DNA of 64,000 nt, taken from contig NZ_BSDR01000001.1 of the NCBI RefSeq assembly GCF_027925305.1, forward strand, positions 2,631,001 through 2,695,000, written 5' to 3'. Numbering within the stretch: position 1 is the stretch's first letter; each line of letters opens with the position of its first letter. Shown in pieces: positions 6,467 to 36,355 of the stretch. A program made the translations under genes and the position numbers. The notes beneath the pieces are model-generated. The model ran no database searches. It saw nothing but the letters and a program-made list of their open reading frames with translations, and was not told where the DNA came from. The DNA comes from Desulforhabdus amnigena. Lineage in GTDB: Bacteria > Desulfobacterota > Syntrophobacteria > Syntrophobacterales > Syntrophobacteraceae.

Positions 6467-6485
6467 CTGAAAACCTTCGTATCTA

Positions 6486-6556
6486 ACCACGGAGACACGG
6501 AGAACACAAAGATTTCATTTGAAAGTCTTTCTCCGTGCCCTCCGTGTCTCCGTGGA
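6486..6556. repeat. Dispersed inverted repeat family A, copy 2, inside the hydrogenase operon
   Basis: ACCACGGAGACACGGAG ... CTCCGTGTCTCCGTGG ends, lying between mvhG (ends 6593) and mvhA (starts 6466). The inner part shares GATTTCATTTGAAAGTC with copy 6 near 59707. The hairpin would be transcribed in the operon mRNA. Confidence 0.85.
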
Positions 6557-6592
6557 GATCAAATTTGACAATCTCAAGCTAAATGACCTGTC

Positions 6593-7990: not shown

Positions 7991-10900
7991 TTAAGAAACT
8001 CTCGCCCCGGCATCTGCCTGTTCTCCCAGCGCCGCTTCCACCTGGGCGGAAAGCTGCCGGTAGGTGAATCCTCCAACGTCCACACCCTCCTTGGGGCATG
8101 TGGCCTGGCAGGATCCACAACCTTTGCACCGCGCCGCCTGCACCACAATGATTTTTTGATCCTTTTTTCCAGGAACATTTTCGAGGGTGATGGCATGGTA
8201 AGGGCACACATCCACGCAGAGGGCGCAGCCGTCGCATGTTTCGGGATTCACTCGAGCCTTGACGGAATCGAGGATCATGTGCTGGTTGCAGAGCACCGTC
8301 ACCGCCCTGGCCACGGCCGCCTGCGCCTGGGCCACCGATTCTTCTATGGGTTTAGGGTAATGTACAAGCCCCGCCAGGAACAGTCCGTCCGTTGAAAAAT
8401 CCACGGGACGAAGCTTGACGTGAGCTTCCTGAACGAAGCCATCCGCATCAATGGGAATCTTGTAGAGCTTTGCCAAATCAGCAATATCCGGGTTGGGAAC
8501 GATGGCTGTGGCCAGAATCACCACATCGGCCGGAATGCGCAGTGGTTCGTTCAATACGTGGTCCCGAACCACCACGTTCACGTCATTGTCCTGAATGAGG
8601 ACGTTGGGCTTCTCGTGCAGGTCATACCTGATGAAAACGACCCCCAGTTCACGGGCCTTTGTGTAAAGCTCTTCACGCTGCCCATATGCTCGAATATCCC
8701 GGTAAAGGATATAAACGTTACGGCGCGGATCTTCTTCCTTGAGGACAATAGCCGACTGAATGGAGTGGGTGCAGCAAACCTTGGAGCAATAAGGGCGCGC
8801 CGGTTCTCTTGAGCCCACGCACTGGATGAAAACGAAATCACGCCCGTATTTCACCCGTTCGTCCCCCACCAGGTGCAGTTTATCGAATTCAAGGGCCGTG
8901 AGCACCCTTTGGGAATATTCATAGCCGTATTCATCGGTCTTGAAGGCTTGAGCGCCCGTAGCAAGAATCGCCACCCCATGATCCACCGTGATGTTGCCTG
9001 CCTGCTTTTGAATGATGGAACGGAAATGCCCTACAGCCCCCTCCGCATGATTGACGGTGCTCTTGAGGTGAAGGGAAATGAATTCATGACTTTTGACCCG
9101 GGCAATGAGATTTTCCACAAAATCGGGTATGGATTCCTTCTTCCACGTCTCGGAGAGATGGCGGGCATTTCCTCCCAGTTCAGAACTCTTTTCCACGAGA
9201 TGCACCGAAAACCCCTGATCGGCCAGCCCCAATGCCGCAACCATTCCGGAAACACCCCCGCCGAGCACTAAAGCCTGCGGAATCACTCCTATCGAAACGG
9301 GAGGAACCGCTTCCAGGAGTGCAGCCTTGGAAACAGCCATGCGGACCAGGTCTTTGGCTTTGGCCGTTGCCGCTTCGGGTTCCGCCGCGTGAACCCAGGC
9401 CCCATGATTGCGAATGTTGGCCATCTCAAACAGACATTCATTGAGCCCCGATGCTCTGAGCGTCTCGCGAAAAAGCGGTTCGTGAGTCCGAGGGGTGCAT
9501 GCCGCCACCACAATCCGGTTCAAGGCCTTTTCCCGTATTCTCCGGCGCAGGATTTCCTGGGAATCCTGCGAACAGGTGAAGAGATTCCTCTCCACATGGA
9601 CCACGTGCGGCAAACACTTCGCATAGTCCGCAAGAGACTTCACATCCACCACCCCCGCGATATTGGAACCGCAGTGGCACACAAAAACCCCGATTCGCGG
9701 CTCCTCTCCCCTCACATCCCGTTCTGGAGGGAACTCTTTCTGCACTGTACGGCTGAAGCGCACATCCATGAGGGACATGGTTGCCGCCGCAGCCGCTGCA
9801 GACCCTTCCACGACAGACTGGGGAATATCCTTGGGGCCGGAAAATGTCCCACAAACATAGATCCCGGCGCGACCGGCTTCCGTGGGTGAAAAAGAAGAAG
9901 TGACGGCAAATCCATTGTGATTGAGCTCCACCCCGCTACACCGGGCGAGAGACCTGCACCCCGAGTGCGCCTCCATGCCCACCGACAGGACCACCAGATC
10001 GAACTCGTCCTGCGCCTGTTTCCCGTTGTCGGTGATGTAGCGGCAAAGAATCCTCTGATTTTCACTGGAGGGCTCCAGAGAATGCACCCTGCACCGGTGA
10101 AAACGGATGCCTTTTTCTTTAGCCCGTTCGTAATAGCGTTCGAAATTCTTGCCGTATGTCCTCAGGTCCATGTAAAAAATGGAGACATCCAGGTCCTTCT
10201 CAAGCTCTTTGGCGATCATGGCCTCCTTGATGGCGTACATGCAGCAGACGGACGAACAATAGCCATGAGAGGATTTATTGTAATCCCGGCTCCCCACACA
10301 CTGCAGAAAAGCCATCTTTTTGACCTTCCTGCCGTCCCCGGGCCGGATGAGCCGCCCTCTCGTAGGTCCCGACGCCGAGAGAATACGTTCCAGTTCCATG
10401 GACTTGACCACGTTGGGCAAAAGGCCATATCCCCAGGTGCGGGCACCTTTGGGGTCAAACGTCTGGAAGCCCGGAGAAAGGATGATGGAACCGACTTCGA
10501 GGGTCACATGTCGAGGAGCGTCATTCAAACGGACCGCTCCGGCAGGGCAGGCCTTCTCACACGCCCCGCACTTGCCCCCCTGTATTCCAATACATTCCTG
10601 CGGATCGATCTGATATTTGAGGGGAACCGCTTGAGGATACTTCAGATAAATTGCCTTGCGGACCTTGATTCCTTCGTTGTACCCGTCTTTGACTTCACGG
10701 GGGCAAACCCGCGCGCATTCTCCACAGGCGATGCATTTTTCCTTATCCACGTAGCGTGGATGTTCCTTGAGGCTGACTACAAAATGCCCCACTTCCCCCT
10801 CGACCTGCTCCACCTCCGTCAGGGTCATCAACTCGATATTCAAGTGCCGACCGCACTCGACCAGTCTGGGTGAGAGGATTCAGACCGAACAATCGTTGGT

Positions 10901-11062
10901 GGGAAAGACTTTGTCCAACTGGGTCATGGACCCGCCTATTGCGCCTGTCCGTTCCACCAGGTAGACATAAAAGCCGCTGTTGGCCAGATCCAGGGCGGCC
11001 TGCATGCCTGCGATACCGCCGCCCACCACCATGACTGCACCGGTTTTTTCCTGTAAAATCAT
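7991..11062 (-). CDS. hdrA: HdrA-type heterodisulfide reductase subunit A, duplicated form, selenocysteine-containing
   Basis: 1023 residues with one in-frame UGA at codon 61 (10880-10882). Upstream reads GGGIAGMQAALDLANSG ... FPTNDCSV, downstream ILSPRLVECGRHLNIEL; together these make the conserved HdrA stretch in which the UGA position is normally Cys. Then come a CIACGECARVCP ferredoxin motif (110-121), a second ferredoxin motif, an internal HdrA-like start (VFVCHCGSNIAGVVDV), a second FAD site GGGVSGMVAALGLADQG, and two C-terminal ferredoxin motifs. HdrA bifurcates electrons through FAD. The double FAD layout is longer than the methanogen protein of about 650 residues. Its stop is one base from mvhD. 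Confidence 0.9.
10840..10860 (-). promoter_or_regulatory. SECIS-like hairpin of hdrA
   Basis: In the mRNA, UCGAGUGC pairs with GCACUUGA (8 bp, one G-U near the middle) around loop GGUCG, starting 19 bases after the UGA. A GGUC loop on a short stem at this distance resembles the E. coli fdhF SECIS, whose loop is AGGUCU. Confidence 0.75.
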
Positions 11063-19405: not shown

Positions 19406-20446
19406 ATGCAAGGACCTCTGAAAGTTGCCGTATTGGGTACAGGGCGGATGGGCTGCGGCATCATCCGGCTTCTCTTTCAAAAAAAAGGGCTGGAGCTGAC
19501 CGGCGTTTACGGTCGTAGAACCGACCGGGCAGGGATCGATATCGGAAAGGCAGTGGGACTTGCAGAGGAAATCGGGATCAAAATATCGAACGACCTTCCG
19601 GCTCTGCTGAAAAAGGCAAAAGCTCACGTGGTGATCCAGGCCACATGCTCCAGGGTCTCCGAGGCTGCGGAAGAAATCAGAACCGCTCTTCACCAGGGAG
19701 CAAACGTCATTTCCATTGCAGAAGAAATGGCATATCCCGCCTGCCAATCCCCGCTCATCGCCAAAGAACTCCATGCGCTCGCTCTGCAAAAGAAAGTGAC
19801 CGTCCTCGGAACCGGCATCAACCCGGGATTCGTGCTCGATCTTCTGGTGATCGCTCTCACAGGCGTGTGCTGGAAAGTGGAATCCATTACGGCAAAGCGG
19901 GTGAACGACCTCTCTCCTTACGGCCCATCCGTTCTGGCGGCCCAGGGAGTGGGTGTCACCCCTGAAGCGTTCCAAAAAGGCGTGGCGGAGGGTTCCATCG
20001 TCGGACACATGGGATTTCCCGAATCCATCGGCATGATTGCCAAAGCTCTCGGCTGGGAAATCGACAGGATCGAAGAGATCCGCAGCCCCATCGTTTCCAG
20101 GGTGAAGCGCGAAACCCCTTTCGTGAAAATCGAACCGGGGCTCACCGCAGGCTGTAACCACACTGCACTGGCCTATCGTGACGGCAATCCGGTCATCCAC
20201 CTGGTGCACCCTCAACAGGTGCACCCACACCTGGAAGGCGTCGAAACGGGGGATTCCATAAAAATAGAGGGCGAGCCCAATGTCCATTTTTCCGGCAGTC
20301 CGGAAATCCCCGGTGGTATCGGCACGATCGCCCTGGCCGTCAACATGATTCCCCATGTCGTCAATGCTCCCCCCGGGCTGAAATCCATGGCGGATCTCCC
20401 CGTACCCGCAGCCTTCATGGGGGACATACGTACACTGCTCCAATAA
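19406..20446 (+). CDS. ord: 2,4-diaminopentanoate dehydrogenase
   Basis: 346 residues. Oxidatively deaminates (2R,4S)-2,4-diaminopentanoate to 2-amino-4-oxopentanoate with NAD(P)+. GTGRMGCGIIRLL near residue 11 is the nucleotide-binding motif; VLGTGINPGFVLDLL and a dihydrodipicolinate-reductase-like fold support the family. Assignment is strengthened by the next four genes, which are the rest of the D-ornithine oxidative pathway known from Clostridium sticklandii in the same order. GGGAGG is upstream of the ATG. First gene of the cluster; about 235 bp of non-coding sequence precede it. Confidence 0.88.
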   Translation: MQGPLKVAVLGTGRMGCGIIRLLFQKKGLELTGVYGRRTDRAGIDIGKAVGLAEEIGIKISNDLPALLKKAKAHVVIQATCSRVSEAAEEIRTALHQGANVISIAEEMAYPACQSPLIAKELHALALQKKVTVLGTGINPGFVLDLLVIALTGVCWKVESITAKRVNDLSPYGPSVLAAQGVGVTPEAFQKGVAEGSIVGHMGFPESIGMIAKALGWEIDRIEEIRSPIVSRVKRETPFVKIEPGLTAGCNHTALAYRDGNPVIHLVHPQQVHPHLEGVETGDSIKIEGEPNVHFSGSPEIPGGIGTIALAVNMIPHVVNAPPGLKSMADLPVPAAFMGDIRTLLQ

Positions 20447-20465
20447 AATCGAAGGGAGACGGCCA

Positions 20466-20780
20466 ATGGCTGAACGCGCAGAGAAAGGTTCCTGGGTTGA
20501 AATTCACGGCATCGTGCTGGAAAAGGGTGAAAGAGCTCCACAGGTTCCCGAGGACACGCAAAGGGTCCCTCTGGAAATGAAGGTCAAGGGATTTCTGGTC
20601 CATGACGCCGTGGTGGGCGGGGAAGCTGAAATCGTCACGCCCGCCGGCCGGACGCTCAGGGGAAAACTCACAGCGGTCAATCCGCCGTACACGCACATGT
20701 TTGGTTCCCCGATTCCCGAACTCTCACGCATAGGAGGCGAAGTACGGGCGATTCTCAGGGAAAAGGGGCAGGCACAATGA
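20466..20780 (+). CDS. ortA: 2-amino-4-oxopentanoate thiolase, alpha subunit
   Basis: 104 residues. Small subunit of the PLP thiolase that splits 2-amino-4-oxopentanoate with CoA into acetyl-CoA and D-alanine. Contains the family stretches WVEIHGIVLEKGERAPQVPE and NPPYTHMFGSPIPEL. No catalytic domain of its own. GAAGGGAGA lies upstream; it overlaps ortB by 4 bases. Confidence 0.88.
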   Translation: MAERAEKGSWVEIHGIVLEKGERAPQVPEDTQRVPLEMKVKGFLVHDAVVGGEAEIVTPAGRTLRGKLTAVNPPYTHMFGSPIPELSRIGGEVRAILREKGQAQ

Positions 20781-22201
20781 ATCCCCGCGATAGCTATGAA
20801 TCCATAATGGCTCAGCGCACAGAAATCATGCGCTCTTCCGTCGGCATCGATTACGCTCGATACATCACTGGCCCCCTTTCCTTCGATTACGAAAGGCTGC
20901 TCGCCGACACCGGTTATGACCTTCAAACGATCCGTTCCATCCAGAGCGAGACCGGAGTGGGCAACACCCCCATGGTCGAACTCAGGAATCTCACCGGGCT
21001 TGCCCGCGCCGTTTCCAAGCCGGGAATGGGAGCGCGCATCTTTTTAAAGGACGAAGCAGCCAACCCTTCGGGGTCGTTCAAGGACCGCAGGGCCTCCCTT
21101 TCAGCTCATGAAGCGAAAAAGCGCGGCTACAGAGGAATTGCCGCGGCGACGAGCGGCAACTACGGTGCGGCGGTGGCTTCACAGGCGGCGAAAGCGGGCC
21201 TTCGATGCATCATCGTGCAGGAAGCCTTTGACAGCAAAGGGGTCGCGCAGCCGGAAATCGCTGAAAAAACGAGGGCCTGCGAAGCATACGGAGCGGAAGT
21301 CGTCCGGCTCTCCGTAGGTCCGGAACTCTTTTACGTCTTTCTTGCGGTGCTCAAAGAAACCGGGTACTTCAACGCTTCCCTCTACACCCCCTACTCCATC
21401 CTCGGAATCGAAACCCTGGGCTATGAGCTCGCCCTGCAGATCCAGACTGGGGAGGGAAGATTTCCCGATGTGGTGGTCGCCACGCATGCGGGGGGCGGGA
21501 ACGTCACGGGCACGGCCCGAGGGCTCCTGAAAGCGGGTGCGGCGGAGACCCGAGTGGTTGCCGCAAGCGTGGACCTTTCCGGCCTCCATATGGCTTCGGA
21601 CCGCGATTTCAATCGCAAGTCCTTCACCACCGGCCATACGGGCTTTTCCATTCCCTTTTCCACCTGGCCCGACAGGGCGGACGTGCCGAGAAACGCGGCA
21701 CGGGCCCTTCGTTACATGGACCGCTTCGTTACAGTGACTCAAGGAGAGGTCTTTTATATCACGCAGGTCCTCGCTGAAATCGAGGGACTGGAACGCGGCC
21801 CGGCGGGAAACACCTCGCTCGCCGCCGCATTTGCCATGGCGCGACGGATGGAGCGGGACCAGATCATCGTCGTGCAGGAAACCGAATACACGGGAGCCGG
21901 CAAGCATCCATCCGCACAATTGAATCTCGCAAAACAAATGGGCATTGAGGTGGTGCGTGGGGATCCCGGAGCGAGCAAGCCGGGAAAATCCATCGTCATC
22001 CCGGAGCATCCCGCTCAAATTGAGGCCGTGGATGTGGACCTGGACCGGCTCAGAAGGTCCTACCTGCGAAATGCCCTTCATTCCCTTGGGGAGAAGCGGT
22101 TTCCCACCGAAACCGATGTGCGATTTTTGGCAGCCGATACAAAATCAACTCAGGACTATGTTCGGGAGGTGATTCATGAGCATTACGGAAAGAGCGGATG
22201 A
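20777..22201 (+). CDS. ortB: 2-amino-4-oxopentanoate thiolase, beta subunit (PLP)
   Basis: 474 residues, fold-type II PLP protein related to threonine synthase. The PLP lysine is in NPSGSFKDRRAS (K102), and the phosphate loop looks like ATSGNYGAAVAS with a later HAGGGNVTG. Catalyses the thiolytic cleavage that yields acetyl-CoA and D-alanine. Start overlaps ortA by 4 bases; its end overlaps oraS by 26 bases, so the genes are translationally coupled. Confidence 0.9.
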   Translation: MNPRDSYESIMAQRTEIMRSSVGIDYARYITGPLSFDYERLLADTGYDLQTIRSIQSETGVGNTPMVELRNLTGLARAVSKPGMGARIFLKDEAANPSGSFKDRRASLSAHEAKKRGYRGIAAATSGNYGAAVASQAAKAGLRCIIVQEAFDSKGVAQPEIAEKTRACEAYGAEVVRLSVGPELFYVFLAVLKETGYFNASLYTPYSILGIETLGYELALQIQTGEGRFPDVVVATHAGGGNVTGTARGLLKAGAAETRVVAASVDLSGLHMASDRDFNRKSFTTGHTGFSIPFSTWPDRADVPRNAARALRYMDRFVTVTQGEVFYITQVLAEIEGLERGPAGNTSLAAAFAMARRMERDQIIVVQETEYTGAGKHPSAQLNLAKQMGIEVVRGDPGASKPGKSIVIPEHPAQIEAVDVDLDRLRRSYLRNALHSLGEKRFPTETDVRFLAADTKSTQDYVREVIHEHYGKSG

Positions 22202-22529
22202 CTTCAAAACCCGGCGACAACATTTAGAAAAAATGTCCGATGAGGAACTGCACACGTATTTTTGGACTTTGGTGAATCAGATCGTTCAGCCCCTCGTGGA
22301 GGAAGCCAAAACCCATACTTCTCCTTCCATCGAACGGTCGGTGCTCCTGCGGATGGGCTTTTCCAGTCTGGAAGCAAAGTCCATCGTCAATACTATGCTC
22401 GAGAAGGGAATTCTCGGCCACGGCGCGGGGAACCTCATCCTTCGGCTCGCACGAAAGAAGGGCATTGCCGTACGGGAGGCTGGGCTTGCATTGATGGACG
22501 GAAAATATTGGGAGGAGGTGGCAGGATGA
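22176..22529 (+). CDS. oraS: D-ornithine 4,5-aminomutase, S subunit
   Basis: 117 residues, close to the C. sticklandii small subunit. Helical, with ERSVLLRMGFSSLEAKSIV and GAGNLILRLARKKG. It partners OraE in the adenosylcobalamin- and PLP-dependent move of the delta-amino group of D-ornithine to C4, forming 2,4-diaminopentanoate. Start is inside the end of ortB; stop overlaps the oraE ATG (ATGA). Confidence 0.88.
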   Translation: MSITERADDFKTRRQHLEKMSDEELHTYFWTLVNQIVQPLVEEAKTHTSPSIERSVLLRMGFSSLEAKSIVNTMLEKGILGHGAGNLILRLARKKGIAVREAGLALMDGKYWEEVAG

Positions 22530-24721
22530 AATCCCTGGTCCCGGAAAAGAAAATCGACATCCAGGAAGTGCTCGAGGATTTGGACAAATACCGCCCCAAG
22601 CGAAAGGGATGGAGCTGGCGCAGGCATATTGAAAACCAGGAGATCGGCCCCTTCGTCTTCAAGGAAACGTCGCAAAACCTCAAAAATTCCGTGCCGCTTC
22701 CTTCAGCCCGGCACCTGGGGAACATAGATCCTCAATGCGATGTGGTGATCACGACGGAAATCGCATCCGGGCGGTTCGAAGACGATATCCGGCGCATGCG
22801 CATGGCGGCATGGCACGGAGCGGACCACATCATGGTCATCCGCACCGTGGGCCAGTCGCACTTCGACGGACTCATTGAAGGCACACCGGAGGGAGTGGGT
22901 GGAATCCCCATCACGAGAAAGCAGCTTCGAGCAACGCGCAAAGCCCTGGACGCCATCGAGGAGGAGGTGGGGAGGCCCATCAACTTCCATTCCTACGTGA
23001 GCGGAGTCGCGGGCCCGGAAATTGCCGTCATGTTTGCTGAAGAAGGTGTAAATGGAGCCCACCAGGACCCCCAGTACAACGTGCTCTACAGAAACATCAA
23101 CATGCACCGTTCCTTCGTGGATGCCGCCGAAGCCAAAACGATCATGGCCGGAGCGGGAATCCTTCAGATCGACGGGGCGCATAATGCCAATGCCACGGCC
23201 AAAGAAGCCTGGAAGGTCATGCCGGAGCTCTTCGTGCAGCACGCCGTCAATGCGGCATTTTCCCTGGCGGTAGGCATGCCGAGGGAATTCATCGCTCTTT
23301 CCACGGTCCCTCCCACTGCACCCCCCGCACCCAAAATGCGTCTCGACCTCCCCTATGCCGTGGCGCTCCGGGAGATTTTCAAGGGGTTCAAATTCCGTGC
23401 TCAACAGAACACACGGTACATGGAAGCGGACATGGCCGAAGCGACCATCACCCATGTGCTCGACACATTGATTACCAGCATGACTCCCACCGACATTCAG
23501 AGCACCATCACCCCGGATGAAGGACGCAACGTGCCCTGGCATTACAACAACATCCTGGGAGTGAATACCGGCCGGCAGACCCTCATGGGAACGGACGGAC
23601 TCATGGAGATGGTCGAACTGAAAAGGGAGGGCAGCCTGCCTGAAAAGGTTCGGGAATTGAAGGAACGCGCCGTTCTTTTCCTGGAGGAAATCCTTGAAGC
23701 GGGAGGTTATTTTGCTGCGGTGGAAGAAGGGCATTTCGTGGATTCGGGTTGTTTTCCCGAAAGAAAGGGAGATGGAATCGTCCGAGATCCCCACGGCGGA
23801 GTTGCCGCCGATTCCATCATAAAGCGTGAACCCGATTACGGCGCTCCCGTCTGCTGCCATTTCGGTGACAACGTTTATGCACCAAAGGACGAAAAGCCTT
23901 GCGGTTCATACGGGGGATGCACCCTCTGTGATCCCTCCAAGATTCAGTATATCGATGAACTGGACCCAATGGACAATGTACACAAACGCCTTGAAAAACC
24001 CCTCGAGGAAAAAGCCGCCGGATGGGTGCGGCCCGAAGTCGAATGGTCCGGGGACGGTATAGTGTGCGTCACCCTTTTTATCCCCGAGGAACCCGAAGTG
24101 GCGGAAGCGGCGGCCCTCAAGATGGCGGAAAAAATGGGGCTCTTGAACCCGGAAGTGATCAGCAGGCGGCTCATGCACCCTGCGGAAGGAAGCCTCTTTG
24201 AGGTCAAGGGAAGGCTCGATTATGCGGTGAAAAGGGATGAACTGGTCCTTCAGAAAAAAGAGGAAAGCTTACCCGACAAGGAAATCGAGGCCTATGTCCG
24301 GCCAAGAGACATCCATGTCGTGGGGGCCACAGTGGGGCAGGATGAACATTCCGTCGGATTGAGAGAGATTCTGGACATCAAGCATGGAGGCATTGAAAGG
24401 TACGGCTTCCAATGCCACTACCTGGGAACTTCGGTTTCTCTTTCCCGGGTCCTGGATGCCGTTGAGGAGACGGGCGCACGCATTGTTTTGATCTCCACCA
24501 TAGTAACTCACAACGACATTCACAAGACCAACATGAAAAAACTCCATGACCTGGCCGTCGAACGGGGCTTGCGGAATAAGGTGCTCCTCATCGCCGGCGG
24601 CACCCAGGTGACCGACGAAATGGCCAGGGCCTGCGGCATGGACGCAGGATTCGGAAGGGGCGCCAAGGGGCGCCAGGTGGCCACATTCATTGTCAGAAAC
24701 CTTAGTGGGGTCAGCCCTTGA
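22526..24721 (+). CDS. oraE: D-ornithine 4,5-aminomutase, E subunit (B12 and PLP)
   Basis: 731 residues, the usual length. An N-terminal TIM-barrel part (from about 40 to 500) is followed by a C-terminal Rossmann cobalamin domain with DEHSVGLREILD, the D-x-H-x-x-G motif whose His ligates cobalt, and a Thr/Gly-rich IAGGTQVT strand. The ATG at 22526 is preceded by GGAGGAGG. The last four residues (GVSP) and the TGA are encoded by the REP end of the transposase element, so the native C-terminus may have been altered by that insertion. Confidence 0.92.
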   Translation: MKSLVPEKKIDIQEVLEDLDKYRPKRKGWSWRRHIENQEIGPFVFKETSQNLKNSVPLPSARHLGNIDPQCDVVITTEIASGRFEDDIRRMRMAAWHGADHIMVIRTVGQSHFDGLIEGTPEGVGGIPITRKQLRATRKALDAIEEEVGRPINFHSYVSGVAGPEIAVMFAEEGVNGAHQDPQYNVLYRNINMHRSFVDAAEAKTIMAGAGILQIDGAHNANATAKEAWKVMPELFVQHAVNAAFSLAVGMPREFIALSTVPPTAPPAPKMRLDLPYAVALREIFKGFKFRAQQNTRYMEADMAEATITHVLDTLITSMTPTDIQSTITPDEGRNVPWHYNNILGVNTGRQTLMGTDGLMEMVELKREGSLPEKVRELKERAVLFLEEILEAGGYFAAVEEGHFVDSGCFPERKGDGIVRDPHGGVAADSIIKREPDYGAPVCCHFGDNVYAPKDEKPCGSYGGCTLCDPSKIQYIDELDPMDNVHKRLEKPLEEKAAGWVRPEVEWSGDGIVCVTLFIPEEPEVAEAAALKMAEKMGLLNPEVISRRLMHPAEGSLFEVKGRLDYAVKRDELVLQKKEESLPDKEIEAYVRPRDIHVVGATVGQDEHSVGLREILDIKHGGIERYGFQCHYLGTSVSLSRVLDAVEETGARIVLISTIVTHNDIHKTNMKKLHDLAVERGLRNKVLLIAGGTQVTDEMARACGMDAGFGRGAKGRQVATFIVRNLSGVSP

Positions 24722-25743
24722 CATTGGAAATTGCAAGGGAGAACACAGCCAGCAATTTGCCAAGTGCGCTATCTTTCTCGGCCTTTTCCGGGAACCTCGC
24801 ATACACCTTCGCAACTGCGGAATAGCTCAAACCGCCAAACAAATCTCCGATCCGGCGGTTGGTCAGCCCCGTATACTTTTTGAGTAAATAAATCGTCAGG
24901 TCCCTCTTGTCATCCTTCTGCACTGCCAGATCTTCGATGGAGATCCCCAAATGATGCGACACTATTTTCAATATCTCTTCAGCTCCCATCGATTTTTGCA
25001 GCTCACGCCGGGACGATACCTCCTCTTTGCTCAGGGTTTCATCCTTCAGCCGCCCCAGAGTCTTCCGAATAAAATTCTCTCCGCCCAGAATCGCTCCCCC
25101 GTAGACATCCTTCAAAGGACTCTCCAGCTCTTCCGATATAGCGCTCTCTATAAAGGCACGATATTTACTCCGGGCCAAAGCCGGGTCGCTCGCAAGCATT
25201 GCCAGGATAAGATCCCGATAAACTATCTCTTCCCCCTCTTTTTGAATAAATGACTTGTAACTGCTGTAAGGATAGGCCTCGGGTCTTTCGACTATCCCCG
25301 CTCTTACCGGATTCAGGTGGACATATCGGCTCAATTCCAGGAGGTAGTTGTCCTTATCCACCAGGATGGCTTTGTATCTGCCCTGGAAAAGATGCCCCGT
25401 CCGGCCTTTTCTCCTGTTGATGTAGTTGGTGTAGGATCCGTTGATGTAATGCATCACCTTGCTCAAATTTCCTCCGGGGGTTTCAATGAGCAGATGATAA
25501 TGATTGGGCATCAGGACATAGCAGTGGAGGCGGTATGCGTACTTTTCCCGCGCTTCTTCAAGATAGGTTTTGAACCGATCGTAATCCGCCTTGGAAAAAA
25601 AGATCCTCTTGCGCTCATTTCCGCGACTCGTGACGTGATAAAAAGCGCCTTCGTGTTGAATCCGCAAAGGTCTCGCCATGAAAAACCTCCCATATAAGCG
25701 AAACCTTTAGCATGGGGAATGTCTCAAGTCAAGGGCTGACCCC
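24707..25743 (-). mobile_element. REP-associated transposase element with terminal inverted repeats
   Basis: Left end GGGGTCAGCCCTTGAC (24707-24722) and right end GTCAAGGGCTGACCCC (25728-25743) are perfect inverted complements enclosing a single Y1 transposase gene. It sits exactly at the 3' end of oraE. A third copy of the end sequence is at 27761 and a duplicated right end at 26096-26111. Confidence 0.85.
24711..25679 (-). CDS. REP-associated tyrosine transposase (RAYT, Y1/IS200-like)
   Basis: 322 residues. Single-strand DNA transposase of the TnpA-REP kind. GAFYHVTSRGNERKRIFF, the HUH-type metal motif in MPNHYHLLIET, and the catalytic Tyr region SYTNYINRRKGRTGHLFQGRYKA are all present. 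The C-terminal third (about 225-310) has a DnaA-C-like HTH (KYTGLTNRRIGDLFGGLSYSAV), common in Desulfobacterota relatives. It ends NVKG at a stop supplied by the REP end. AGGTTTTTC lies upstream of the ATG. The gene appears intact. Confidence 0.9.
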   Translation of the reverse strand: MARPLRIQHEGAFYHVTSRGNERKRIFFSKADYDRFKTYLEEAREKYAYRLHCYVLMPNHYHLLIETPGGNLSKVMHYINGSYTNYINRRKGRTGHLFQGRYKAILVDKDNYLLELSRYVHLNPVRAGIVERPEAYPYSSYKSFIQKEGEEIVYRDLILAMLASDPALARSKYRAFIESAISEELESPLKDVYGGAILGGENFIRKTLGRLKDETLSKEEVSSRRELQKSMGAEEILKIVSHHLGISIEDLAVQKDDKRDLTIYLLKKYTGLTNRRIGDLFGGLSYSAVAKVYARFPEKAEKDSALGKLLAVFSLAISNVKG

Positions 25744-26118
25744 ATGGATACTGGAAAAGATGCCCCGTCCGGCCTTTTCTCCTGTTGATGTAGTTGGTGT
25801 AGGATCCGTTGATGTAATGCATCACCTTGCTCAAATTTCCTCCGGGGGTTTCAATGAGCAGATGATAATGATTGGGCATCAGGACATAGCAGTGGAGGCG
25901 GTATGCGTACTTTTCCCGCGCTTCCTCAAGATAGGTTTTGAACCGATCGTAATCCGCCTTGGAAAAAAAGATCCTCTTGCGCTCATTTCCGCGACTCGTG
26001 ACGTGATAAAAAGCGCCTTCGTGTTGAATCCGCAAAGGTCTCGCCATGAAAAACCTCCCATATAAGCGAAACCTTTAGCATGGGGAATGTCTCAAGTCAA
26101 GGGCTGACCCCATGGATA
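25383..26118. repeat. 368-bp tandem duplication of the right part of the RAYT element
   Basis: Unit 1 is 25383-25750 and unit 2 is 25751-26118. I saw only one difference between them, a T/C in the CGCGCTTCTTCAAG word (position 25558 against 25926). The unit spans the 5' part of the transposase, its upstream region and the right REP end, so it is very recent. Confidence 0.88.
25724..26047 (-). pseudogene. 5' fragment of the RAYT gene created by the tandem duplication
   Basis: The first 99 codons of the transposase are repeated up to GHLFQ, then the frame runs into the right REP end and stops. The HUH motif is kept but the rest of the catalytic domain and the HTH are lost, so it should be inactive as a transposase. 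Confidence 0.88.
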
Positions 26119-27972: not shown

Positions 27973-29949
27973 ATGTACGGACCCTACATCACCATCGATC
28001 TTGAAAAAATTGAACACAATGCCCGTACAATAACCCGGCTCTGCAGGGCACACGGCATTGAAGTCACCGGTGTCACCAAGGTGACCTGCGGCATGCCCCA
28101 GGTGGCCAAAGCCATGCTTCGCGGCGGCGTCTCTTCCATCGGCGAATCCAGAATGAAGAATATTCACCGCCTGAAAGCCAATGGAGTCAACACTTCCTTC
28201 ATGCTTCTCAGGATCCCACCCCTTTCAGGGGCTGACGATATCGTAGCCTCGGCAGATATCAGTCTGAATTCAGAACTCCCAGTGATCTCGGCACTTTCGG
28301 ATGCCGCATGCCGCAGAGGGCTGGTTCATAAGATCATCATCATGGTCGATCTTGGCGACCTTCGCGAGGGAGTGTGGCCGGACGATCTTCTCCCGTTTGT
28401 CCGTGACGCAGTGGGCCTTCCCGGAATCCGCATCGTGGGTCTCGGAACGAATCTCAGTTGTTACGGAGGTGTAATTCCCACGGCAGAAAACATGAACCGG
28501 CTGGTCGAATACGCCTGCATGATCGAAAAGAGTTTCAGCATCGATCTGCAGTATATTTCAGGTGGGAATTCGAGCGCACTCAACCTCATTGCTTCGGGTA
28601 AGATGCCCAAGCGGATCAATCACGTGCGTATCGGCGAAGGGATTCTCCTTGGCCGCGAAACCATAAACCGGACCGCCTGGCCCGGCACCTTTCAGGATGC
28701 GTTTATGCTCCATGCGGAAGTGATCGAGTTGAAAGAAAAGCCATCCATGCCCATCGGGCCGACAAGCGAGGACGCATTCGGAGGTAAACCCGTTTTTGAA
28801 GATAAGGGTGAGATGATCCGGGCCATATTGAACATCGGGCGGGAAGATGTCGACATCGAAGGCATCAAGCCGGTGGATCTAGGACTTTCCATCCTCGGCG
28901 CATCCAGCGACCACCTCATCTTGGACGTCACACGGGCACAAAAAGCCGTTCATCTGGGGGAGGACCTGGCCTTTTCCATGAACTACGGGGCACTTTTGGC
29001 TGCCATGACTTCCCAGTATGTGGAAAAACGCCCTCTGAGAGGTCTCGAAATGGAACGACTTCGTGCCGGGGTGATGATTTTGTGTATCAGGGGAGCCAAC
29101 GGTAAAGCCCCCTTCACGGTATTTGATATTGAAAGACTTGAGAAGGGCTTGAAAGTTCTGGGATATTCGAATGTCATAAAAAAGAACATCTCCTCTCCCT
29201 CGGGAGGAGAAACGCAGAGCCATGAAAGGCATTCCCCTTCCGCGGAAAACCGGCAGATCCTTGAAATGGCACCGGCAGTGGCTGATGGGGTGGTCGAAGC
29301 TCTTGCGCAAGATTGCATTCCCCTGGTTCTGGCAAATGATCCCGGGCATTGCCTTGGTGTCTACCAGGGATTGGCCCGATTTCTGCCGTCCTGCGGCACG
29401 ATCATTCTCAGCGCTCACGGCGGCTTCATGCCCCCCCGTACCGATGTGCCCCTTCGGCACTCGGCACTTGGATCAGCTCTTGGCTTCGACGTGGGCACAA
29501 CTGCGGCGCTTGCAGGCATTCAACCCTGCCTCCAACCGGAACAGGTCGTTTTGATCGGCCTGCGGGAAGTAGAGGACGAGGAAGCTCAACGGATCATCCA
29601 CTCAGGCATAACCGTCTACACCATGGAAGAGATCGATGCCCTTGGGATACGCGAGGTCGCGGATCGTGCTCTGCATACTGCGGGAATGGGCACCGCGGGC
29701 ATTCATTTGAACCTGAACATGGATGTTTTAGATCCCGGCGTGGCACCCGCAGTCCTTCAGCCTGCCAAAGGCGGCCTCTCCTACCGGGAGGGGCACCTCG
29801 TGATGGAAATGATCGCCCGGTCGGAACTTCTTCGATCCTTGGCGGTGGTAGGTTTCTCTCAGGAGAGGGACAAAAATGGCTCCACAGAGCGAACCGCAGT
29901 GGAGTATATTCTTTCCTTGTTTGGAAAGAAGATTCTTGGAACAGTGTAA
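27973..29949 (+). CDS. orr: Ornithine racemase fused to a degenerate ureohydrolase (arginase-like) domain
   Basis: 658 residues from ATG 27973 (an earlier GTG at 27925 is possible). The N-terminal half, about 1-355, matches Clostridium ornithine racemase: IDLEKIEHNARTITRLCRAH, the PLP Lys in GVTKVTCG, LGDLREGVW, SGGNSSAL and IGEGILLGRET. The C-terminal half, about 360-655, follows the arginase fold: a DPGH site (456-459), SAHGG (480-484), ALGIREVADRAL, NMDVLDP (582-588) and GGLSYREGHL. The manganese ligands are partly lost: DAHxD has become SAHGG and DxD is NMD, so arginase activity is doubtful. Racemase activity would feed D-ornithine to OraSE. Confidence 0.87.
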   Translation: MYGPYITIDLEKIEHNARTITRLCRAHGIEVTGVTKVTCGMPQVAKAMLRGGVSSIGESRMKNIHRLKANGVNTSFMLLRIPPLSGADDIVASADISLNSELPVISALSDAACRRGLVHKIIIMVDLGDLREGVWPDDLLPFVRDAVGLPGIRIVGLGTNLSCYGGVIPTAENMNRLVEYACMIEKSFSIDLQYISGGNSSALNLIASGKMPKRINHVRIGEGILLGRETINRTAWPGTFQDAFMLHAEVIELKEKPSMPIGPTSEDAFGGKPVFEDKGEMIRAILNIGREDVDIEGIKPVDLGLSILGASSDHLILDVTRAQKAVHLGEDLAFSMNYGALLAAMTSQYVEKRPLRGLEMERLRAGVMILCIRGANGKAPFTVFDIERLEKGLKVLGYSNVIKKNISSPSGGETQSHERHSPSAENRQILEMAPAVADGVVEALAQDCIPLVLANDPGHCLGVYQGLARFLPSCGTIILSAHGGFMPPRTDVPLRHSALGSALGFDVGTTAALAGIQPCLQPEQVVLIGLREVEDEEAQRIIHSGITVYTMEEIDALGIREVADRALHTAGMGTAGIHLNLNMDVLDPGVAPAVLQPAKGGLSYREGHLVMEMIARSELLRSLAVVGFSQERDKNGSTERTAVEYILSLFGKKILGTV

Positions 29950-29993: not shown

Positions 29994-31127
29994 TTGGATC
30001 ATCATCGGTCGAGTCATCTGACTCAGGCATTCATCCACCTCGATCATCTCACCCACAACATGAATCTGCTTCAAAGCCTGGTAGGCGACCGCCCCCTCTG
30101 GCCGGCCATCAAAGCCAATGCGTACGGCCATGGCGCAGAAATCGTCGGCCGCCATCTCATGGACATGGGATATGAAACCCTGTGCGTCGCTCATGTTTCG
30201 GAAGCCATCGATCTGAAGGAAGCGGGGCTGAACGCAACGTTCATCGTACTCTCAGCCACTTTACCGGAAAACAGTGAGTACCTGGTGGCCTACGGATGCG
30301 AACCCGTCGTCTGCACTCTTGAAATGGTGGAAGGGATCGCAAGGGTCGCTTCCAGAACGGGGAAAAAGGTTGCAGTACATCTCAAGGTGGATACCGGCAT
30401 GGGCCGCGTGGGGATTCGCCCGGATCAGGTCGTTGAGTTTCTCGATCGTTGCCGTGACTACCCCGAGGTCACTGTAAAGGGCATCATGAGTCATTTCCCC
30501 ATGGCCGACGAAGAGGACAAATCCTTTGCCGTACGCCAGATCGACCTGTTTCGGCAGGTGAAAGAAGCATCCAGAGGATACGGAATCAGCGTGTATCATT
30601 TCGCCAACAGTGCGGCTATCTTCGATCTGCCGGATGCTTACTTCGATGCCGCACGCCCGGGGATATCCATCTATGGTCTGAAACCGTCTCTTTCCATGTT
30701 GAACCCACGGGTAAAGGAACTCAAACCGGTCCTCGAATGGAAAAGCCGCATCACTTTTCTGAAGGAGGTACCCGCTGGAACGGGGCTGAGCTACGGGCAC
30801 ACCTTTCATACTCAAACTCCGTCTCTGATCGCGACCATCCCTCTGGGTTACGGAGATGGAATGAGCCGGCTGCTCTCCAATAAACTGCAATTCTTGATTC
30901 ATGGGATCCGATGCCCACAGGTGGGGAGGATTTGTATGGATCAATGCCTGGTGGATGTGACCGCGCTCCGCGGCAGGGTGGAACCGGGAAATGAAGCCGT
31001 CATCGTGGGAAAACAGGGCAACGATGAAATCACGGTGGATGATCTTGCCCAAACTCTTGGCACCATCAATTATGAAATTGTGACCAACATCGCGAAACGC
31101 GTGCCTCGAATCCCCTTGAAGGCTTAG
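29994..31127 (+). CDS. alr: Alanine racemase
   Basis: 377 residues, fold-type III PLP enzyme. PLP Lys in AIKANAYGHG (near 39), KVDTGMGRVG, catalytic Tyr in GLSYGHTF and the RICMDQCLVDVT stretch are all present. Interconverts D- and L-alanine. The start is TTG at 29994, with GGAGG 7 bases before it; no ATG is better placed. It follows orr by 44 bases. Because OrtAB releases D-alanine, this copy probably converts that product to L-alanine for catabolism, though cell-wall D-alanine supply is the usual role. Confidence 0.9.
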   Translation: MDHHRSSHLTQAFIHLDHLTHNMNLLQSLVGDRPLWPAIKANAYGHGAEIVGRHLMDMGYETLCVAHVSEAIDLKEAGLNATFIVLSATLPENSEYLVAYGCEPVVCTLEMVEGIARVASRTGKKVAVHLKVDTGMGRVGIRPDQVVEFLDRCRDYPEVTVKGIMSHFPMADEEDKSFAVRQIDLFRQVKEASRGYGISVYHFANSAAIFDLPDAYFDAARPGISIYGLKPSLSMLNPRVKELKPVLEWKSRITFLKEVPAGTGLSYGHTFHTQTPSLIATIPLGYGDGMSRLLSNKLQFLIHGIRCPQVGRICMDQCLVDVTALRGRVEPGNEAVIVGKQGNDEITVDDLAQTLGTINYEIVTNIAKRVPRIPLKA

Positions 31128-31306: not shown

Positions 31307-31915
31307 TCAGGAGGTGGAAGTGGCGGCGAGCATCGCAACTTGCTCTGCGATCTCTACGGCCAGCTTCCCCACTGTCCGGCTGAGCGCAGCAACAGCGGCG
31401 TCCGCACTGGTATCGGCCGCCTGCTCGCTGACCGTGGATGTGCGTGAAAATGCCAGTTGCCCGGTTTTGCCGTCAAAGATCTGCCAACGGGCAGCGAGCG
31501 TTGCCTGCCCGCTTTTGCTGACATCAAAGCGGGTAAAATCGACCTGGACACGGTAATCGAGCGGTGACGGCGTTGCCTGAGGAAAGGCATCGACGCGGTC
31601 GCCGGGCATAAGATTCGCAATATTTTGAAGCAAAACGGCCGGCAGCCCATTGGCAAGCGGTTCAGCCCATTGCCGAAAGTCCCGCAGACGAACAACATAG
31701 GGACTCTCACGGATAACGATCTCCGGCCGGTCGGTATAGCCTGCGATGCTGACCGGTCCGATTCCGATCGTCAGAGGGGAATGTGCCTGTATATTCACGC
31801 CTGGATCAACGACGCTTGTAAGCGTATAAAAACAGGTCTGCGGGCTTCTGCAGGCGGTCAAAGCGAGTGACAGCATCAACAGTGCAAGCAAGAGGCATCT
31901 CTTTCGGTTCATCAT
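31307..31915 (-). CDS. pqiC: PqiC-type auxiliary lipoprotein
   Basis: 202 residues. Lipoprotein signal with lipobox LALTAC (about 17-22), then the ABC-transport auxiliary lipoprotein domain (CFYTLTSV, IGIGPVSIAGYTDRPEIV, WAEPLANGLPAVL). In E. coli PqiC is outer-membrane anchored and pairs with PqiB in lipid transport between membranes. Start overlaps the pqiB stop by 4 bases. Third gene of the pqi operon. Confidence 0.87.
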   Translation of the reverse strand: MMNRKRCLLLALLMLSLALTACRSPQTCFYTLTSVVDPGVNIQAHSPLTIGIGPVSIAGYTDRPEIVIRESPYVVRLRDFRQWAEPLANGLPAVLLQNIANLMPGDRVDAFPQATPSPLDYRVQVDFTRFDVSKSGQATLAARWQIFDGKTGQLAFSRTSTVSEQAADTSADAAVAALSRTVGKLAVEIAEQVAMLAATSTS

Positions 31916-33582
31916 TTTTTGGAACCCTCCTTCCCTCGAATCAATGCCTCCGGATGACGCTGCAGCGTATCCGCCAAGGTCCTCACAGCTCGGCTGGTAT
32001 CCGTCAGCTCCTTTATCATCTGAACCAGGCCGTAGCGCAGTTGGGAGTCCTCACCGACCATCCGGTCGGCGTCGGTCATCACCGTCTCTGCCTTGGCTAA
32101 TGTTTTGCGGGCGGTATCCGACGTTGCTTTCAGACTATCGAGCAGGGGACCAACCTCTTTCAAGGAAGTCACCGCATCCTTTACCGATTTCGAATTGATC
32201 AGCCGGTCCGTTGACTGGATTGTATGGCGCAGATCGTTTATCAGTTCCTGCAGCGGGAGCGACTCGAGTTTAGCCAGGAAATTACTTGCCTGGGTGCTGA
32301 GTTCTTTGAATTCCGACGGTTCCGACGGGATAACCGGGATCTTTCCACTTGTATCAAGCTCCGCCGGGGCAGCCTTAGGAAAAAACTTGAGAGCGATCAC
32401 CTGTTGTCCGGTCAGGAGATTGCCGGACTGCAACTGCGCTCGCAGGCCTTTGTGTACCCATTCCTTCATGTATTTCCAGTGCAAAGACTCCATTTCCGCT
32501 TCTGTCATGGAAAATGCGCCCGTAAAATTCAGCCGTTGCGGTTCCATTTCGACCGTCACCGGAACTTTTATCAGCCCGGTTTTTGGATCGATCATGATGC
32601 GAACGTCGCTAACCTGCCCGACCTTGATGCCGTAAAACAAAACCGGCGCCCCCACATCCAGCCCGGAAAGGGACTGGCCATTGAAATAGATCAGGAATGG
32701 CCGTCTGAGGTGAAAGCCGGCTTCTTCAGCCTGACTGAACGACTCGTAGAGTGGAAACCCCTTGCCTTCGGGACTCTGCTCGGTATGGCTGAACTCACGA
32801 GCGGTATCGAAGGCAATACCGCCGGTCAGCACGGATTGCAGCGACTCGGTACGGACGGTCACTCCACTCGAAGTAAGCGACATGTCGACGCCGCTGGCAT
32901 TCCAGAAACGGCTCCGATCCCTGACAAGTTTATCGTGCGGCGCCGCGATAAAGGCAGTAAAGGTAACGCCGCGGCCGTCGTCATCGAGAGAATAGCCGAG
33001 GACCTGGCCGACCTGGATGCCACGATAATAAATGCCCGACCCCGCTGAAATCGATCCGACCTTGGAAGCATGAAGCTTATATCTGGATCCGGGAACATCC
33101 ACGGTCAGCACAGGCGGCTCAGTGAGGCCGGTGAATTTCCTTGCTGCTTTACCCGGTCCCGGGCGCATGGCAATGTAGGTGCCGGAAACCAGAGTGCCGA
33201 GGCCTGAAACCCCCGATGCCGTCAATCGTGGCTCAACGATCCAGAAAGTGGTTCCCTCACGCAGTTGGTCGGCAATCTCCTTGCGCATTTCAGCGGTGAC
33301 CACCACCCGGCTAAGATCTTTACTGAGGTCAACCGAATCGACAAGACCAAGGTCGACGTCACGATACTTGATCCTGGTCTTGCCAACCTCCAGGCCTGAG
33401 GCCGTTTCAAAAGCAATGGTAATGGTTGGGCCTTTCTCGGAGTAGGTTTTGTAGACGAGCCAAACCCCGATGAGAAAGGCGACCAGCGGAATGAGCCAGA
33501 CGATCGACGGCAAGCGTCTTTTCTCGACAATAGCCGCTTGCGGCAAATCATCCTGTGAGACGGCAGGCTTCTCTTCAGTCAC
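31912..33582 (-). CDS. pqiB: PqiB-type MCE protein
   Basis: 556 residues, similar to E. coli PqiB. One N-terminal membrane helix (IVWLIPLVAFLIGVWLVYK, about 26-45) is followed by three MCE domains: ITIAFETASGLEVGKTRIKY, then LHASKVGSISAGSGIYYRGI, then LSGLDVGAPVLFYGIKVG. A C-terminal helical region forms the needle in the E. coli structure. The periplasmic channel carries lipids between membranes. GTG start at 33582, overlapping the end of pqiA by 8 bases. Confidence 0.9.
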   Translation of the reverse strand: MTEEKPAVSQDDLPQAAIVEKRRLPSIVWLIPLVAFLIGVWLVYKTYSEKGPTITIAFETASGLEVGKTRIKYRDVDLGLVDSVDLSKDLSRVVVTAEMRKEIADQLREGTTFWIVEPRLTASGVSGLGTLVSGTYIAMRPGPGKAARKFTGLTEPPVLTVDVPGSRYKLHASKVGSISAGSGIYYRGIQVGQVLGYSLDDDGRGVTFTAFIAAPHDKLVRDRSRFWNASGVDMSLTSSGVTVRTESLQSVLTGGIAFDTAREFSHTEQSPEGKGFPLYESFSQAEEAGFHLRRPFLIYFNGQSLSGLDVGAPVLFYGIKVGQVSDVRIMIDPKTGLIKVPVTVEMEPQRLNFTGAFSMTEAEMESLHWKYMKEWVHKGLRAQLQSGNLLTGQQVIALKFFPKAAPAELDTSGKIPVIPSEPSEFKELSTQASNFLAKLESLPLQELINDLRHTIQSTDRLINSKSVKDAVTSLKEVGPLLDSLKATSDTARKTLAKAETVMTDADRMVGEDSQLRYGLVQMIKELTDTSRAVRTLADTLQRHPEALIRGKEGSKK

Positions 33583-34834
33583 GATTGGCTCCAGCTGCGT
33601 CCCAGATCAGACGCGGATCGAAACTCATGGCAGCGAAGATTGTCAGTACGACGACGGAGGCAAAGGCCATCGCACCGACCCCGGGAACGATTGTAGCAAT
33701 CGAGCCCATTTGTACGAGGGCTGCTGTGATTGCAAGAACGAAGATATCGACCATCGACCAGCGTCCTACGGCATCGATGATCCGGTAAAGACGCGTCCTG
33801 TCTGCCGGCCTCCAGCGCGATCTGCGGTGTATCGAGATGAGAAGGAAAATGAGGCCGACCAGTTTCAGCATGGGTACAGTAATGCTTGCAAAGAAGACCA
33901 GCACAGCCAGCGGCCACATCCCAGAGCTGATCAGTTCCTGGACACCGCCTAGAATGGTGTTGACGAAAGGCTTGCCGAAAGAGACCACCGTCATCACCGG
34001 ATAAACATTGGCGGGAATGTAAAGAATCGCCGCAGCAATGACCAGTGCCCAGGTCCGGTTGAGGCTGTCCGGTTTACGCTGGTGAAGCGTTGCACCACAC
34101 CGGGGACAGAAAGCCGATTCATCCTCTGTGTGGGGATCGACACGGCAAACCAGGTGACATACGTGACAGCTGAGCAGCCGCTTTCGCTCTCGGGGATCGG
34201 GCAATGGTTGCGGCCGCGAGCGTTCCAACCGCTCCCAAACTTCACGCGGTTCGTTGGCGGCATCGCCGGCCGCCATCGCCACGATCATGGCAACGAAGCA
34301 GAAAAGAGCAACACCGACCTTTATGGTCCCCAAATCTGCCAGCTTCACGCACGTTACCAGCACGCCAAGCAGAAAGACCTCCGCCATCGACCAGGGGCTG
34401 ATCAGTTCCACAAGCCGGGCAGCCTGTTCAGCAAACGGGGCACGCCGGCCGAAATGGAGTGGAGCCAGTACGTACAGGTTGGTCAGGATCTTTGCCAAGG
34501 GTACGACAATCATGACCAGAAGAACCAACAGGCCGACTTCCCACATCCCCTGGCGATACACGGCCAATGCGCCGGAAATGAGTTTGCTGGTTTGCACACT
34601 CCCTTCGATGGACATGGAAAGGAACGGAAAGCTATTGGCAAGCAACAGCAGAATCAGCGCTGTGAGGTTGAATATGAATGCGTTGGCAATACTGCGTGTA
34701 TTTCGTTTATAAAGCACGGCACCGCAGCGAGCGCACTTGACCGTTGTCTTATCCGGCGCATCGGGAACGACAAAAAGCTCATCGCATTCCTGGCAACGAA
34801 TCAACGGTCTTTTGCCTGCATGAACAAGATTCAT
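33575..34834 (-). CDS. pqiA: PqiA-type integral membrane protein
   Basis: 419 residues. Two copies of a zinc-ribbon plus four-helix unit: RCQECDELFVVPDAPDKTTV with CARCG near 12-40, and CHVCHLVCRVD with CPRCGATLH in the middle. Eight or so membrane helices. Inner-membrane partner of PqiB. First gene of the operon; in E. coli the locus responds to SoxRS and paraquat, but no operator is recognisable here. Confidence 0.9.
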   Translation of the reverse strand: MNLVHAGKRPLIRCQECDELFVVPDAPDKTTVKCARCGAVLYKRNTRSIANAFIFNLTALILLLLANSFPFLSMSIEGSVQTSKLISGALAVYRQGMWEVGLLVLLVMIVVPLAKILTNLYVLAPLHFGRRAPFAEQAARLVELISPWSMAEVFLLGVLVTCVKLADLGTIKVGVALFCFVAMIVAMAAGDAANEPREVWERLERSRPQPLPDPRERKRLLSCHVCHLVCRVDPHTEDESAFCPRCGATLHQRKPDSLNRTWALVIAAAILYIPANVYPVMTVVSFGKPFVNTILGGVQELISSGMWPLAVLVFFASITVPMLKLVGLIFLLISIHRRSRWRPADRTRLYRIIDAVGRWSMVDIFVLAITAALVQMGSIATIVPGVGAMAFASVVVLTIFAAMSFDPRLIWDAAGANRD

Positions 34835-35611: not shown

Positions 35612-36355
35612 TTATTGTGGAGGATTCACAATTACATAAGTTACCTGGTCCCCTTGATATACAGGCTGGTACCAGGTCGAGCCGGACTGATAGTAGGTAA
35701 TACCGTTCACAACCATCATGCTTGGAGGGACCGCCAGCGCATTGAACGCAGAAGCCGTCAAGACGCTACCCACGGCCATACCGGTAACGGCCCCGGCTGC
35801 GTACGTGCCGCCGTAGCCATAGCCATAACCACCATAGTATCCAGGATGGTAGTCGTCCGCCCAGCTCTGTCGGCTTTGCTGAGCCTGCTGCCCATAGCTT
35901 TGCCAGGATTGCGCCTGTTGTTGCCCATAGCTTTGTCGGCTTTGCTGGGCTTGCTCTCCATAGCTTTGTCGGCTTTGTTGAGCCTGTTGTCCATAACTTT
36001 GCCAGGATTCACGACCGGATTCCCGGCTGGACTGGGCACTGGACTGCATTTGTTCTGCCGTGGACTGGCGGCCGGACTCCATGCTGGAGCGATCGGCCTG
36101 CCAATTCCCGCTGCTTGCGACTCCGCTACCTGAAAAACGGTCACCACCTCCCCAACCACCGCCTCTCGACTCGGCACCTCCCCAGCCGCCGCCACCGAAT
36201 CCACCCTCTCCACCGAAATGCCCTCCACCGGCAAAACCACCCCGGGAAAATCCTCCACCGCCTCCACGAAAGGCTTCCCCTTGCGTGGCCACAAAAACGA
36301 TCATCAGGAAGAGGCCACTCCAAGTTATAAGGTGTCCCAATATTTTAGTTTTCAT
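35612..36355 (-). CDS. Exported Gly-rich and Gln/Ser-repeat protein with C-terminal DUF6515-like part
   Basis: 247 residues. Signal peptide to about 28, a Gly-rich stretch (about 30-80, FGGEGGFGGGGWGG), then four to five copies of an 11-residue unit SYGQQAQQSRQ (about 118-165), a Gly/Tyr stretch (GGYGYGYGGTYAAGAV) and a C-terminal SH3-like segment (VVNGITYYQSGSTWYQPVYQ). The last part recurs in many exported proteins as DUF6515. The repeats look like a flexible or aggregation-prone linker. Two bases separate it from the DUF2092 gene upstream, so they are cotranscribed. Confidence 0.75.
   Translation of the reverse strand: MKTKILGHLITWSGLFLMIVFVATQGEAFRGGGGGFSRGGFAGGGHFGGEGGFGGGGWGGAESRGGGWGGGDRFSGSGVASSGNWQADRSSMESGRQSTAEQMQSSAQSSRESGRESWQSYGQQAQQSRQSYGEQAQQSRQSYGQQQAQSWQSYGQQAQQSRQSWADDYHPGYYGGYGYGYGGTYAAGAVTGMAVGSVLTASAFNALAVPPSMMVVNGITYYQSGSTWYQPVYQGDQVTYVIVNPPQ

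Follow-up and report, generated by a model that had tools for sequence, protein, structure and literature searches.

An Orr-like racemase fused to an arginase-like domain that has lost its hydrolase site and kept an intersubunit arginine site

RESULTS

The fusion and its domains

The window (the whole 64,000-nucleotide stretch of Desulforhabdus amnigena DNA analysed here) contains one open frame in which a PLP racemase domain is followed by an arginase-like domain (Table 1); an alternative GTG start lies 48 bases upstream of position 27973. In an NCBIfam search, aa 4–353 match NF040742 racem_Orr with 439.5 bits, under the curated cut-off of 480, and the Pfam model PF01168 scores 92.6 bits. K36 and Y338, which we take to be the invariant lysine and tyrosine of the alanine-racemase-type PLP fold, do not vary across the 35 rows of the alignment. 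Arginase sequence models from Pfam and NCBIfam cover aa 423–654 (PF00491, 111.3 bits; TIGR01229, 119.8 bits, short of its curated cut-off of 227.6), and in the predicted structure the arginase fold begins earlier, at aa 364. This AF2 model (35-row alignment) has a mean pLDDT of 87.9 and a pTM of 0.72; its residues 364–655 match the Bacillus caldovelox arginase 1cev_A with a VIA Z of 37.7 and an rmsd of 2.8 over 288 aligned positions, and Foldseek relates the model to the arginase 2cev_A (E 9.2e-25) and to the alanine racemase 5yyc_A (E 2.7e-21). The original prediction of a single frame, racemase to about residue 355 and arginase-like thereafter, is therefore borne out by domain searches and predicted fold alike. 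No frameshift or assembly join was found, the window genome being one contig of 4.54 Mb; numerous unrelated assemblies encode both domains in the same arrangement, so that a chance or assembly artefact is ruled out.

Table 1. Features of the fusion and of its surroundings in the window
Feature	Position	Strand	Basis
ord, start of the ornithine oxidative cluster (19406..24721)	19406-20446	+	NCBIfam, over cut-off
ortA	20466-20780	+	NCBIfam, over cut-off
ortB	20777-22201	+	NCBIfam, over cut-off
oraS-like	22176-22529	+	position and homology to other clusters alone
oraE	frame ending 24721	+	NCBIfam, over cut-off
Racemase-arginase fusion frame	27973-29949	+	658 codons, open; 658 aa
Orr-like PLP racemase domain, aa 1-356, ending ...YVEKRPLRG	27973..29040	+	NF040742 racem_Orr, PF01168
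Pseudo-arginase domain, aa 364-658	29062..29946	+	predicted structure
P457 in place of metal ligand H99	29341..29343	+	1cev alignment
S480-A-H482-G-G484 in place of metal motif DAHGD, H alone kept	29410..29424	+	1cev alignment
Interface stretch T550...D555 (=D199)...R560-E561	29620..29655	+	T194 83/84, D199 82/84 in fused family
N582-M-D584 in place of metal motif D226-x-D228, second D alone kept	29716..29724	+	1cev alignment
Interface stretch G601, R605, E606, E612 (=G245, R249, E250, E256)	29773..29823	+	84/84 each
G627 in place of guanidinium-binding E271	29851..29853	+	1cev alignment
C-terminal G651-K652-K653-I654	29923..29934	+	chain end near that of B. caldovelox arginase, without Arg308-type tail
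alr, alanine racemase, directly downstream of fusion	29994..31127	+	TIGR00492, 328.1 bits

Gene neighbourhood

The ornithine cluster, whose ord, ortA, ortB and oraE were assigned with the models NF040740, NF040739, NF040741 and NF040743, lies ∼3.3 kb upstream of the fusion with transposase and kinase genes between. On the reverse strand of this interval (24711–26047) sit a transposase gene, presumably of the REP-associated type, and an adjoining truncated copy that begins identically; in relatives a GlmL/MutL-like gene takes the place of this pair. Of the 75 loci sorted as fused, 16 have such a gene, presumably a reactivase, close to the fusion. A search of the window genome with the reactivase from the related locus L041, run without a positive control, gave no match, so the window aminomutase may lack its reactivation partner. 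Beyond alr, the reverse strand holds three genes that by eye resemble a paraquat-inducible pqiABC-type set (31307–34834) and a gene for a secreted-looking protein with repeated QQSRQSYGEQA units (35612–36355). Neither an arginine deiminase nor a second ureohydrolase was matched in the window genome, and arginine is therefore no evident source of ornithine there.

Neighbours were tallied for 95 loci, of which the motif filter sorted 75 as fused and 11 as unfused and could not place 9 (L053, L111, L208–L213 and L215). Ornithine-oxidation genes accompany 10 of the 75 fused loci, as well as L053; a D-amino-acid dehydrogenase accompanies 52, mostly Mesorhizobium, in a set where many loci are short, and within the same limit none of the 95 has both. 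The Shinella and Roseateles XES5 operon runs from speB-like, 5-guanidino-2-oxopentanoate decarboxylase, aldehyde dehydrogenase and biotin carboxylase-like genes through a C45 peptidase and a D-amino acid dehydrogenase to the fusion and RidA, an order that fits an L-Arg to D-Arg to 2-ketoarginine route; Rid proteins that speed a D-arginine dehydrogenase have been described (PMC5619798). The biotin carboxylase-like (ATP-grasp) and C45 peptidase genes, seen for example in L032 at 5214–7691, are conserved in this D-arginine-type operon. Seven fused spirochaete loci carry arginine deiminase-like genes, and 9 of 11 such spirochaete genomes have an arginine deiminase match of at least 200 bits, all under the curated cut-off of 489.1. 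One spirochaete locus (L045, 2220–13141) combines ord-ortAB-oraSE with a reactivase-like gene abutting the fusion. Genes resembling ornithine carbamoyltransferase and arginine deiminase follow in convergent orientation, and the locus seems to carry a complete gene set leading from arginine to acetyl-CoA.

The neighbours of the fusion thus point to ornithine oxidation or to a D-arginine route. The window enzyme is probably a racemase of ornithine or arginine, and the alphaproteobacterial members may act on arginine. Parts of PMC8803604 describe the oxidative ornithine pathway as ord-ortAB-oraSE-orr, with Orr as the racemase. The window protein resembles Orr (NF040742) in its racemase domain and in its ord, ortA, ortB, oraS and oraE neighbours, but the NF040742 model, which the window protein scores below cut-off, has 351 positions and no C-terminal domain.

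Distribution of the fused family

A scan of genome contigs with two peptide patterns yielded 369 relatives, and among the best 80 of these 72 are fused and 8 unfused; as the ranking favours full-length matches, this proportion is no estimate of frequency. A tblastn search recovered the fusion from Sinorhizobium, Shinella and Roseateles XES5 plasmids (three of the best 5 of 208 matching records). In less biased samples, centred on individual members, 149 Spirochaetota genomes gave one fusion, that of the centre genome itself, and 12 further genomes in which most of the racemase, and nothing else, was matched; 99 genomes from the phylum of the Zymogenaceae centre gave four, two of them already in the set; and 148 genomes from the class of the Lentisphaerota centre gave seven, one already in the set. 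None of 59 relatives of the window genome matched over both domains. The resulting 84 fused domains comprise 72 from the contig scan, the window, the three plasmid records and eight from the phylum and class samples; trees and first tables use 47 of them, near-identical Mesorhizobium and similar loci being left out. The racemase–arginase layout is thus a widespread family across several phyla. The original prediction knew of no characterised counterpart, and the fused, arginase-like layout stands as it described; yet with 84 members it is no single case. No paper on a racemase–arginase fusion was found in the open-access papers searched, which is no proof of absence, subscription papers lying mostly outside them.

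Loss of the hydrolase site

Arginase residues are numbered here as in the B. caldovelox enzyme (1cev). In the alignment to 1cev, four of the six metal ligands are replaced in the window protein (H99 by P457, D122 by S480, D126 by G484 and D226 by N582), two are retained (H124 as H482, D228 as D584), and the further catalytic residues H139, presumably rat H141, and E271 are replaced by R495 and G627. The prediction had read DAHxD as SAHGG and DxD as NMD, which is correct, and the GGLSYREGHL stretch it named is present; it erred in stating that a DPGH site remains, since DPGH stands where arginases have GGDHS and puts a proline opposite the ligand histidine. The loss of hydrolase chemistry that it proposed is nevertheless supported by these replacements, and residual arginase activity of the window protein was rejected on the lost metal ligands.

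Across the 84 fused members, H99 is kept in 11, D122 in 64, H124 in 14, D126 in 10, D226 in 11, D228 in 20 and E271 in 7, and at least one metal ligand is missing from 83. All six are present in a single Zymogenaceae member (L039), and five in L190. Intact ligands in homologues, which the prediction had named as a sign against itself, thus occur in one member, which has no equivalents of E271 and H139 and therefore gives no ground for arginase activity in the window protein; this fusion (9001–11010 of its locus) is the best candidate for residual metal binding. Judged by sequence, the arginase half is a pseudoenzyme that has lost its hydrolase site. Together with the fusion itself, this is the solid part of our results.

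The chemistry was lost by different routes in different lineages. Seven Lentisphaerota-type members keep E271 (7/7) and mostly H99 (6/7) and have lost most metal ligands; four Zymogenaceae-type members keep four to six ligands and have lost E271. The fold persists in the far-decayed domain of Mesorhizobium L062, which is still predicted as an arginase (pLDDT 86.6; Z 27.9 against 1cev and 29.4 against the Thermus thermophilus enzyme).

Conservation of the intersubunit arginine site

Human Asp204 and Glu262 are presumably the equivalents of B. caldovelox D199 and E256, both of which are reportedly contacted by free L-arginine in the B. caldovelox enzyme, by Bewley's account of 1999. The window protein has this site as D555 and E612. 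As set out in PMC7925462, human and rat arginase I have an Arg308 that forms salt bridges with Glu262 and, in rat, with the neighbour's Asp204, the Arg308Ala mutant regains its trimeric state when guanidinium is supplied, and L-arginine occupies the same interface region in the B. caldovelox enzyme, which ends at Met299. The fused chains likewise end near the Met299 position, without an Arg308 tail.

Within the fused family T194 is kept in 83 of 84 members, D199 in 82 (absent in L058 and L100), and G245, R249, E250 and E256 in every one. When the domains were thinned to 27, with a mean pairwise identity of 31%, the invariant residues were G117, G245, R249, E250, E256, G295 and I298. Thirty other ureohydrolases drawn from the same searches give the opposite pattern: D122, H124, D126 and D228 in all 30, D226 in 29 and H99 in 24, against D199 in none and E256 in one, so neither interface residue is demanded by the ureohydrolase fold (Fisher test, 47 fused members versus the 30, p ∼2e-19 for D199 and ∼2e-20 for E256, uncorrected for relatedness). 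In 16 arginase-like proteins the metal and interface residues are mostly both kept (D199 12/16, E256 13/16). This contrast suggests that it is the intersubunit arginine site, and not the former catalytic pocket, that the family has conserved.

Origin, loss and selection

In the C-domain tree all 47 fused domains lie on one side, with only the very long-branched ureohydrolase L197 among them, which suggests a single origin of the fused arginase domains. The racemase tree requires four changes of the fused state and has unfused genes nested within it, among them L041, which is 79% identical to the window racemase, shares its ...RPLRG and ends at the domain border, only 4 residues beyond that motif; a separate clade of seven is unfused as well. 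The likeliest history is that the domain was gained once and lost twice or more, the tree alone being unable to tell gain from loss; the existence of unfused relatives implies that the racemase can do without the arginase domain. Second match segments in L052, L057 and L059 had looked like a separate arginase gene beside unfused racemases; this was rejected, as the ORFs there comprise the alanine racemase that lies downstream and none proved to be an arginase. C-domain branches are longer than racemase branches. In 15 of 17 pairs (both pairs with L051 dropped out, probably through the motif filter), dN/dS is 0.08–0.25 for the arginase domain and 0.04–0.19 for the racemase; the arginase domain is under purifying selection.

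DISCUSSION

Because the metal ligands are lost and the intersubunit arginine site is kept, we propose that the fusion is a two-domain racemase of the ornithine/arginine type whose dead arginase tail is retained as an arginine-sensing regulatory assembly module, a reading to which we give a probability of about 0.45. Both observations also support the earlier suggestion of a non-hydrolytic domain that possibly binds arginine. Retention for subunit assembly is likely; that arginine would be both ligand and switch of the racemase is a specific inference from the residues conserved. Free L-arginine, or a guanidinium or ornithine relative, would bind the D199/E256 site as in B. caldovelox arginase and lock arginase-like trimers together, and this locking would govern how the racemase dimers assemble within a predicted hexamer (dimer × trimer) and how active they are, so that an ample supply of arginine would turn on D-ornithine or D-arginine formation. 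In its ancestral state the fusion was perhaps a working arginase–racemase that made L-ornithine and handed it to the racemase. PMC11271267 reports similar kinetic parameters after a hexamer was broken by E278A, which counts against too strong a reading. Also on the side against it are the window genome's want of a second ureohydrolase or arginine deiminase match, the unfused relatives and the loss of D199 from L058 and L100.

Among known proteins, the arginases (RocF) of B. caldovelox, B. subtilis and T. thermophilus share the fold, the D199/R249/E250/E256 interface site and a chain end near Met299, whereas the fused family is joined to a racemase and has lost most metal ligands, E271 and H139. 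To our knowledge, the arginase-like protein of Trypanosoma brucei is not a fusion. Like that protein, which has no manganese cluster (4RHI; cited in PMC6988801), the window domain combines, by sequence and predicted fold, an arginase fold with lost metal ligands. The same holds for MetCb of the metformin hydrolase MetCaCb, an arginase-family pseudoenzyme without the binuclear metal site that acts through its partner (parts of PMC11271267); MetCb, however, pairs with an active ureohydrolase in a heterohexamer, and the window domain is joined within one polypeptide to a PLP racemase, to which it bears no relation.

MetCb, a dead arginase-family protein serving as a binding partner, is also a precedent for the main rival explanation, which we consider somewhat unlikely, namely that the domain is a ligand-free scaffold holding racemase dimers together, with R560 or K652 filling the D199/E256 site. 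Its own basic residue would then act as Arg308 does in mammalian arginase, and the conserved patch is indeed a subunit interface. Position 204, near the interface site, is R in 71 and K in 5 of the 84 members, and position 296 is K in 80, both differing from most arginases sampled; yet the remaining eight members, with S or H at position 204, all keep D199 and E256. An improbable alternative is a decaying relic of a bifunctional arginase–racemase, held by fold stability alone and heading for loss. It agrees with a decay series that starts at six ligands (L039) and ends at none, with the repeated disappearance of the domain, twice or more (L041 and the seven-member unfused clade), and with the long C-domain branches, but the dN/dS values lie near those of the racemase, charged interface residues are invariant at 31% mean identity, and the fused family shows newly conserved residues. 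The original prediction had placed an allosteric site for ornithine or arginine in the old catalytic pocket, which we judge more improbable again: E181, presumably the equivalent of human E186 on the amino-group side, is kept in 41 of 47 members, but few members retain D178 (14/47), H139 (3/47) or E271 (7/47), most metal ligands have been lost, and many members lack the loop at ∼128–142 or have it in altered form. A ureohydrolase that is still active, with changed chemistry, and channels Arg to Orn to D-Orn is very improbable, since the six ligands of L039, the five of L190 and genomes such as G063, G064 and G084, where PF00491 matches the fusion alone, are set against a window protein with two of six ligands, neither E271 nor H139, and a TIGR01229 score far below cut-off.

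If the domain is an arginine-sensing module, the effector should bind the window protein specifically at D555/E612. Pseudo-arginases were already known; the fused series is large and phylogenetically broad, its members have decayed to very different degrees, it serves as a natural experiment that shows what in an arginase still matters without the chemistry, and it offers the intersubunit arginine site without catalysis. Proteins annotated merely as 'alanine racemase', such as the Shinella and XES5-type fusions, are likely basic-amino-acid racemases. A possible, more tentative generalization is that the domain is a portable L-arginine sensor, in which the hydrolase site decayed by several routes across phyla, the intersubunit pocket was kept and arginine switches the racemase. 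If so, the former activator site of an enzyme would have outlived its active site, and an arginine-switched racemase would feed D-ornithine oxidation or a D-arginine route.
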